A stretch of DNA of 33,035 nucleotides from Paracoccaceae bacterium. Lineage in GTDB: Bacteria; Pseudomonadota; Alphaproteobacteria; Rhodobacterales; Rhodobacteraceae. Under the pieces are notes generated by a model. The model saw nothing but the letters and a program-made list of their open reading frames with translations. It was not told where the DNA came from and ran no database searches. Positions 12,756 through 13,734 of the stretch are shown here, in pieces (position 1 is the first letter of the stretch; each line of letters opens with the position of its first letter). The stretch is from contig JAGQRV010000028.1 of NCBI GenBank assembly GCA_020425125.1, positions 1 to 33,035 on the forward strand, in the 5' to 3' direction. A program made the position numbers and the translations under genes.

Positions 12756-13110
12756 GTGCGGGTTGCCCCTTGGCCAGCGCCCCCGAAGCGATGCCGCACC
12801 TCGGAATCGGCCATTTCTGCAGCTCCGACGAAGGACCAGGTCCCGCAGCCGAACTTGGCCGGGTGGCCAATATTGCAATCTTAAGGGGAAACTGACGGGC
12901 TGAATTTCGGCCTGCCGGGTTCCGACCAGACGGATCGAAGCATTTGCGGTCGGACGACGCCGCGGAAGATGCCGCGCTTGCGAAATGCGCCGGCCTCGCG
13001 GCGCCGGCACGCGATGGCTTTGAAATTGCGTTAATTTCTTGTGACCAACAATGCCTGAAATGCGCCTTTTCCCATGCAGCAGCGGTATAGCAGCTCTTCC
13101 GAAGCGGGGA
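12756..13110. other. Intergenic region upstream of the DUF1127 gene
   Basis: About 355 bases without a gene. The 10-mer GAAATGCGCC occurs twice (12982 and 13057), and TATAGC at 13086 lacks a -35. Open frames on the minus strand here are composition artefacts with no ribosome-binding site. I see no RNA structure that stands out. Confidence 0.35.
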
Positions 13111-13138
13111 TTGTGCACCTGCAGCATTGTCATATCTT
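13111..13138 (+). promoter_or_regulatory. Candidate promoter of the DUF1127–CcsR locus
   Basis: TTGTGC (13111–13116) and TATCTT (13133–13138), spaced 16 bases, lie about 60 bases upstream of the chosen start. The match is weak. In R. sphaeroides the equivalent locus is driven by RpoHI/RpoHII; I cannot assign the sigma factor here. Confidence 0.25.
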
Positions 13139-13197
13139 GATCACGTAACAGCCGGACGCGTTCCGGCGCAGCAATGATCGAGCAAGCGAGATACGAC

Positions 13198-13419
13198 ATG
13201 GCACATGTTCTTGAAGCCCGGGGCGCCTACGGTGCCCGCGAAAGCTGGCTGGCCGCACTTCGTGAATCCATCGCCCAGCGGATAAGGTGGAATGCCGCCT
13301 ATCGCGAGACCCGCCGAGAGCTGGAGCGGCTGAGCGACCGTGAGCTGGCCGATCTCGGTCTGGCGCGCGAGTCGATCCGCGCGATCGCAAGCCAGGCCGC
13401 CTACGATACCGTCCTCTGA
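13198..13419 (+). CDS. DUF1127 protein, CcaF1-like
   Basis: 73 residues from ATG 13198 (ATG 13174 would add 8). The C-terminal half RRELERLSDRELADLGLARESIR is the DUF1127 signature, an Arg-rich helical motif. In R. sphaeroides a DUF1127 protein of this size, CcaF1, binds RNA and affects maturation of the CcsR small RNAs encoded directly downstream of its own gene. Here too the stop codon is followed within 25 bases by two hairpins with CCUCCUCCC loops, so the same pairing is likely. The start is chosen because DUF1127 proteins often begin MA…; the ribosome-binding site (AGCGAGATACGAC) is mediocre. The protein is basic with no TM segment. That it binds RNA is inferred from the relative. Confidence 0.85.
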   Translation: MAHVLEARGAYGARESWLAALRESIAQRIRWNAAYRETRRELERLSDRELADLGLARESIRAIASQAAYDTVL

Positions 13420-13440
13420 TCCGTCTCGAAAGATTCGCGT

Positions 13441-13525
13441 TCCGGCGGCCCTCCTCCTCCCGGGGCCGCCCAACCTGGCGGCGATGTCATTCCTCCTCCC
13501 GTGGCATCGCCGCCGATTTCTTTTC
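13441..13525 (+). ncRNA. CcsR-like small RNA: two CCUCCUCCC-loop hairpins
   Basis: Hairpin 1 pairs GGCGGCCC (13444–13451) with GGGCCGCC (13463–13470). Its 11-base loop contains CCTCCTCCC (13453–13461). Hairpin 2 pairs GGCGGCGATG (13477–13486) with CATCGCCGCC (13505–13514), a perfect 10-bp stem whose loop contains a second CCTCCTCCC (13492–13500). It is followed by GATTTCTTTT, a terminator-like tail. The loops are complementary to Shine–Dalgarno sequences (GGGAGGAGG). This is the hallmark of the CcsR RNAs of R. sphaeroides, which are made by processing from the DUF1127 mRNA under stress. The transcript ends given here are estimates. Confidence 0.8.
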
Positions 13526-13734
13526 GCAGATTGATCCGGCGTGACAGCGGCGTCCGTCCGTGATGGGCCAAAGCTCAGCATCACACTCACCAATGGCTAA
13601 GCCGAAATGACATGGGGCCTCCGGCGATTGCCGAAAGCCCCATGCCGGTGATCGAACCGGCCGCTCACGCGCCACGATCTTCCGAGTGCGTCCCTCTGAC
13701 CCGCTCCGCACGCTCCTCCTCGTGCGGCGCCCGG
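13526..13734. other. Structured intergenic stretch after the CcsR-like RNA
   Basis: It holds a hairpin CATGGGGC (13611–13618)/GCCCCATG (13637–13644) with an inner CGGC-GATT-GCCG stem, and a second hairpin CCGCACG (13706–13712)/CGTGCGG (13721–13727) whose 8-base loop is CTCCTCCT. The latter resembles a degenerate CcsR loop but lies next to the 3' end of a minus-strand gene, for which it could also mark the transcript end. No open frame here is convincing. Confidence 0.45.

Follow-up and report, generated by a model that had tools for sequence, protein, structure and literature searches.

Does the short DUF1127 gene in the stretch of DNA analysed here (the window, 33,035 nucleotides from a Paracoccaceae bacterium), together with the two hairpins that follow it, form a small-RNA locus of the ccaF1-CcsR type (CIN1, cuckoo RNA), and if so, what controls it? 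The window very probably does hold such a unit, with a single twin-hairpin CcsR RNA that works in the CcsR manner, and a conserved operator pair suggests PhaR as a possible regulator. The features of the locus are the following.

13081-13098, plus strand: operator site 1, decayed, AGCGGTATAGCAGCTCTT, with six mismatches to the family site TGCTGCATNGCAGCATTG
13111-13126, plus strand: operator site 2, PhaR-box-like, TTGTGCACCTGCAGCA, an exact match
13111-13137, plus strand: putative heat-shock-sigma-like promoter, TTG-N17-CATATCT, overlapping site 2, with the conserved TTG and a C[TC]AT-type -10
13198-13419, plus strand: gene for a DUF1127 small protein of 73 amino acids, CcaF1-like (Pfam PF06568; Met-Ala start)
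13439-13518, plus strand: predicted CcsR-type RNA (Rfam CcsR1, RF02791)
13444-13470, plus strand: hairpin 1 from the fold, 9 pairs including a U-G closing pair, loop CCUCCUCCC (13453-13461)
13476-13515, plus strand: hairpin 2 from the fold, 15 pairs, loop UCCUCCUCCC (13491-13500)
13516-13526, plus strand: T-rich tail in the sequence, with hairpin 2 a possible terminator

The initial annotation had read the frame as a DUF1127 gene, and a Pfam profile search agrees (PF06568, scoring 38.8 bits where the cut-off is 23.3). The start at 13198 is backed by a Met-Ala pair that is invariant across 13 aligned proteins, and the stop codon, which ends at 13419, is followed after 24 nt by hairpin 1 on the same strand. 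No close copy of the protein was detected in the six other genomes of the genus, where the best match is at 1.0e-6, versus 2.8e-46 for the protein itself.

Both hairpins are real, and each carries CCUCCUCCC in its loop. The stems, at 9 and 15 pairs, are longer than the 8 and 10 bp first given, and the loop is exactly the claimed sequence only in hairpin 1, that of hairpin 2 being one base longer. Folding energies are -19.3 kcal/mol for hairpin 1 (z -3.14) and -26.8 kcal/mol for hairpin 2 (z -6.15), and a 101-nt stretch with both reaches -47.5 kcal/mol (z -4.80), a value that none of 200 shuffled sequences equalled. The T-rich tail is only modest, and the one terminator-like site that the window scan placed at hairpin 2 is no more than chance would give (0.8 expected). 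Two other structures lie 3' of the unit. A third hairpin on the same strand, at 13706-13727 (CCGCACG-CTCCTCCT-CGTGCGG) and some 190 nt 3' of the twin, has a loop without the final CCC, and a lenient search turns up roughly 0.9 hairpins of this kind in each shuffled 3.2-kb locus. At 13611-13646 there is a long imperfect inverted repeat (CATGGGGC...GCCCCATG) without a T run, to which two weak minus-strand matches of microRNA families, apparently due to chance, also map.

In an E-value scan of 13000-13700, the twin matches the CcsR1 model over its full length (RF02791, model positions 1-83 of 83, 44.3 bits, E 1.5e-9). The covariance match that had been proposed as a check is thus present in extent and expectation value, but its score lies below the curated cut-off of 65.3 bits, which is a curation threshold and not a structural feature. 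At gathering cut-offs, Rfam reported one tRNA in the window and no CcsR. The same scan also returned the alphaproteobacterial sRNA ar14 (RF02344), which matches the window twin with 38 bits (E 1.9e-5; cut-off 58.8) and so scores lower than CcsR1, as well as weak matches to Scr3202 (26.6 bits), ar7 (24.3) and ncS035 (13.7). Low scores call for caution, as CcsR1 at E <= 0.01 also matches, below its cut-off, in two of 14 control genomes. Two weak CcsR1 matches elsewhere in the window's own genome, on contigs C33 and C34 (20.5 and 16.7 bits), were rejected because they lack CCTCCT on the match strand. A search of that genome for two CCTCCTCCC motifs 8 nt apart found none, this spacer being too short even for the window twin.

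The natural comparison is with the ccaF1-CcsR1-4 locus of Rhodobacter sphaeroides (RSP_6037, the CIN1 locus, RF02791), which was compared by description. As PMC10253847 describes it, that locus likewise has a DUF1127 gene followed directly by twin-hairpin RNA with CCUCCUCCC loops and a hairpin end; its RpoH-like promoter has a putative counterpart in the window. The window differs in having one RNA unit, not four, and a score below the Rfam cut-off; its genome also contains an RNA-only twin and a DUF1127-only locus, and the mrp-type gene that is usual in relatives does not adjoin the unit. Membership of the ccaF1-CcsR family with a reduced array of one RNA and two hairpins, as originally suggested, is backed by the Rfam match and by the hairpins of relatives.

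Those relatives were read in two sets. The family set comprises 149 genomes, 141 of which match the window protein; 110 loci were read, one per genome, and 31 were not fetched. For one genome (G039) the second-best DUF1127 match was taken, chosen because site 2 adjoined it. The second set holds the best 80 of at least 548 loci, mostly from genera such as Paracoccus, Ruegeria, Limimaricola and Rhodobacter. Because at least four of its loci (L237, L253, L257 and L283) are on the same contigs as L015, L019, L026 and L023 of the 29 family loci fetched first, these 29 and the 80 are not all independent. At least two C-rich-loop hairpins, and up to 17, lie downstream of the DUF1127 gene in 89 of the 110 family loci, including all 29 fetched first, where they are on the gene's strand; in the second set (best 80 of at least 548) the figure is 76 of 80. 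Very long arrays were counted at two single DUF1127 loci, L026 and L032, with 17 and 16 such hairpins. Of the 580 hairpins with the loop CCTCCTCCC at 88 loci of relatives, 84% form seven or more of the eight stem pairs, versus 27% in a control with arms swapped between loci. Among 12 twins of the genus, 11 of the 19 consensus pairs include sequences in which both sides have changed and the pair is kept. The initial annotation had made its reading depend on the conservation of loops and stems in relatives; both proved to be conserved.

The genomic position is a different matter. The upstream, divergent neighbour in 86 of 109 loci of relatives (25 of the 29 first fetched and 61 of 80 in the second set, with at least four contigs in both) is a gene named by eye, which we take to encode an mrp-type ATPase. 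This neighbour is absent at the window and sits on contig C68 of the same genome, where it adjoins a second CcsR twin (50.4 bits) that is RNA-only, without a DUF1127 gene. The window unit does not share the neighbours of its relatives, and its position does not support the claim that it is the orthologous locus. Across the seven genomes of the genus, CcsR1 at E <= 0.01 gives 19 matches in six genomes, none above the cut-off; two of 22-23 bits (L335 and L336) were dropped for want of C-rich loops, which leaves 17. In the fetched flanks of 16 of these 17 twins, two of which had less than 0.5 kb upstream, there is no DUF1127 gene, the window being the exception, and in five genomes an RNA-only twin lies beside the mrp-type gene. 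Each of the seven genomes also has one DUF1127 gene, on contig C26 in the window's genome, preceded by site 2 at zero or one mismatch and not followed by a hairpin array. In this genus, protein and RNA genes therefore mostly stand apart, and a joined unit like that of the window was not found in the other six genomes. Outside the window's genus, an exact site 2 at G092:C27:212623 (L093) precedes an array of C-rich hairpins, and the frames listed there include no DUF1127 gene; RNA-only arrays may therefore exist beyond this genus too.

Two other accounts of the hairpins bear on this reading. That they are chance products of GC-rich sequence, as the yield of the lenient search on shuffled loci could encourage one to think, is almost certainly wrong: it is already contradicted by the conservation in relatives, and neither the fold of the joint stretch nor the CcsR1 expectation value fits it. 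It is also quite improbable that their sole role is on the DUF1127 mRNA itself, stabilising its 3' end or acting as a double terminator, and that no trans-acting RNA is made. Their place directly 3' of the gene and the T-rich tail of hairpin 2 would suit such a role; yet the loop sequence is conserved while the stems vary, a pattern that termination does not call for, and nearly all twins of the genus stand without a DUF1127 gene in their fetched flanks. A CcsR-type RNA remains the preferred reading of the twin.

Upstream, relatives have two blocks in common, site 1 (TGCTGCATNGCAGCATTG) and site 2 (TTGTGCANNTGCAGCA). Among the 89 family loci with at least two hairpins, site 2 is present at two or fewer mismatches in 81, versus 5 of the 21 without such hairpins, and site 1 at three or fewer in 79; in shuffled upstream sequences used as a control, site 2 appears at three or fewer mismatches in 9 of 550. 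The second-set loci with hairpins (from the best 80 of at least 548) have site 2 in 72 of 76 cases and site 1 in 65. Where both sites are clear in the family set, their starts are 31 bp (45 loci), 30 bp (27) or 22 bp (3) apart, and in the second set (best 80 of at least 548) 31 bp (40 loci) or 30 bp (21). By itself, site 1 of the window is no better than chance would give, but its distance to site 2, exactly 30 bp, is the canonical one. Exact site 2 was counted at 109 places, spread over 84 of the 149 genomes, versus 4 for the reversed pattern; 30 of these places were read, and a DUF1127 gene or a C-rich array follows in 19 of them and neither in 11. Exact copies also lie upstream of an acetyl-CoA acetyltransferase-like frame (L109) and near malyl-CoA-lyase-like frames (L090 and L104), all named by eye.

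In the 4.0-Mb genome of the window, exact site 2 is confined to three places: the window, the C68 twin and the C26 DUF1127 gene. Among the genus twins it lies upstream of 13 of 17 at two or fewer mismatches and of 15 at three or fewer, and it precedes all seven lone DUF1127 genes. The split organisation of the genus is a natural experiment: the protein and RNA parts lie at unlinked places and yet have retained the same operator, an argument for selection on their joint regulation. A C[TC]AT-type -10 element is also kept in relatives, in the window as CATATCT 17 nt after TTG, and the promoter scan gave no sigma-70 match there. An RpoHI/RpoHII promoter has been reported for ccaF1 of R. sphaeroides (PMC10253847), and RpoH promoters require TTG (PMC3441632). 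The TTG and CATATCT of the window are compatible with such a promoter, which fits the stress control that the initial annotation had in mind.

PhaR is a repressor that comes off DNA as PHB granules form. That of R. sphaeroides binds CTGCNNNGCAG, and the PhaR box of the Sinorhizobium meliloti sRNA gene mmgR, CAATTGTGCACCGCAGCATTA, is bound efficiently (PMC12542648). Of the operator pair, one site fits the published R. sphaeroides sequence. CTGCNNNGCAG occurs upstream in 57 of 89 CcsR family loci, whereas a control stretch of these loci has it in 1 of 89. The second-set counts (from the best 80 of at least 548) are 48 of 78 upstream and none of 78 in the control, and 29 of 30 phasin promoters carry the sequence. 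CTGCNNNGCAG is present upstream of the orphan twin on C68 and absent upstream of the window gene, which keeps site 2 with a 4-nt spacer. With its flanks, site 2 of the window reads GATTGTGCACCTGCAGCATTG and nearly equals the mmgR box. In the same genome, the site 1 pattern at three or fewer mismatches has 27 matches, both phasin promoters among them, versus 4 for the reversed pattern. The likeness to mmgR, a PhaR-repressed gene, is one of sRNA promoters: the two RNAs are not recognised as one family, and the mmgR box has a 3-nt spacer and PhaR binding seen by EMSA (PMC12542648), whereas for the window the likeness is one of sequence. PhaR is the most probable binder of the operator at the window's CcsR promoter, a putative link with about an even chance of being right.

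A PhaR domain (PF07879) was detected in 144 of the 149 genomes, at G000:C80:81523-81705 in that of the window. The one-contig genome G003, without a PhaR match, keeps the CcsR hairpins and the CATATGTT element and has lost both sites; an exact site 2 elsewhere in it was set aside as a chance match, as it seems to lie inside a protein gene, far from the DUF1127 gene. G098 has no PhaR match and both sites, and since this genome is 84% complete and has a phasin match, the absence of PhaR may be a gap. Three further genomes (G033, G090 and G136) have neither a PhaR match nor a match to the window DUF1127 protein. At two other DUF1127 loci (L139 and L173), two CTGCNNNGCAG-like palindromes stand just 5' of the start codon, another possible link between DUF1127 and PhaR. 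With at least two hairpins, site 2 is lacking in all three genomes without a phasin match versus 5 of 86 with one (Fisher p 0.0005, which ignores kinship).

The chief alternative accepts the unit as CcsR-type and takes the TGC element for the site of another regulator, or for part of an extended RpoH promoter, and its chances fall a little short of even. Two of the three genomes that lack both a phasin match and site 2 hold a PhaR-domain gene, which weakens a simple PhaR reading and would suit another regulator; in G093 and G069 a PhaR-domain gene is present and the operator absent. The spacers also count against PhaR, being 4 nt in site 2 versus 3 in phasin boxes and a differing AT[AG] in site 1, as do the decay of the window's own site 1 and the 11 exact sites followed by neither gene nor array. 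On the other hand, the half-sites of site 1 are those of phasin promoters, site 2 is close to a box that PhaR binds, and PhaR-less G003 kept hairpins and a -10-like element while losing both sites. As to an extended promoter, site 2 does overlap the TTG needed by RpoH promoters (PMC3441632), but site 1 is in helical phase 30-31 bp further upstream, outside the promoter core. The PhaR reading, in its broader form, has about an even chance of holding: across Rhodobacteraceae, the PHB-granule sensor PhaR would directly control ccaF1-CcsR via the operator pair, CcsR would be an output of carbon storage and stress, and in this genus the protein and RNA genes would have split, each keeping operator and promoter.

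As described for R. sphaeroides in PMC10253847, PMC8625941 and PMC8307010, RNase E and CcaF1 together process the ccaF1-CcsR transcript; flhR mRNA is a target of the CcsR RNAs, which also have an effect on glutathione and pyruvate dehydrogenase. By analogy we infer for the window unit that a heat-shock-sigma-like promoter would give an mRNA for the DUF1127 protein, that its 3' untranslated region would fold into the two hairpins, and that RNase E, together with the DUF1127 protein, would set free an RNA some 80-90 nt long. The CCUCCUCCC loops equal what we take to be the ribosomal anti-Shine-Dalgarno core. The likely mode of action is for this reason that both loops mimic the anti-Shine-Dalgarno sequence and pair with G-rich ribosome-binding sites of target mRNAs. 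PhaR on the conserved TGC palindrome operator, which overlaps the promoter, would repress the unit, and on PHB formation PhaR would be released and CcaF1 and CcsR would rise.

None of the papers among the matches listed links PhaR to ccaF1-CcsR; the primary CcaF1, CcsR and cuckoo RNA papers lay outside that search. PMC9230146 includes both PhaR and DUF1127 and, in the text available, treats them apart. PhaR control of CcsR would be new, if experiments confirm it. It would mean that a storage-polymer signal reaches central carbon metabolism via an RNA, as with MmgR in S. meliloti.
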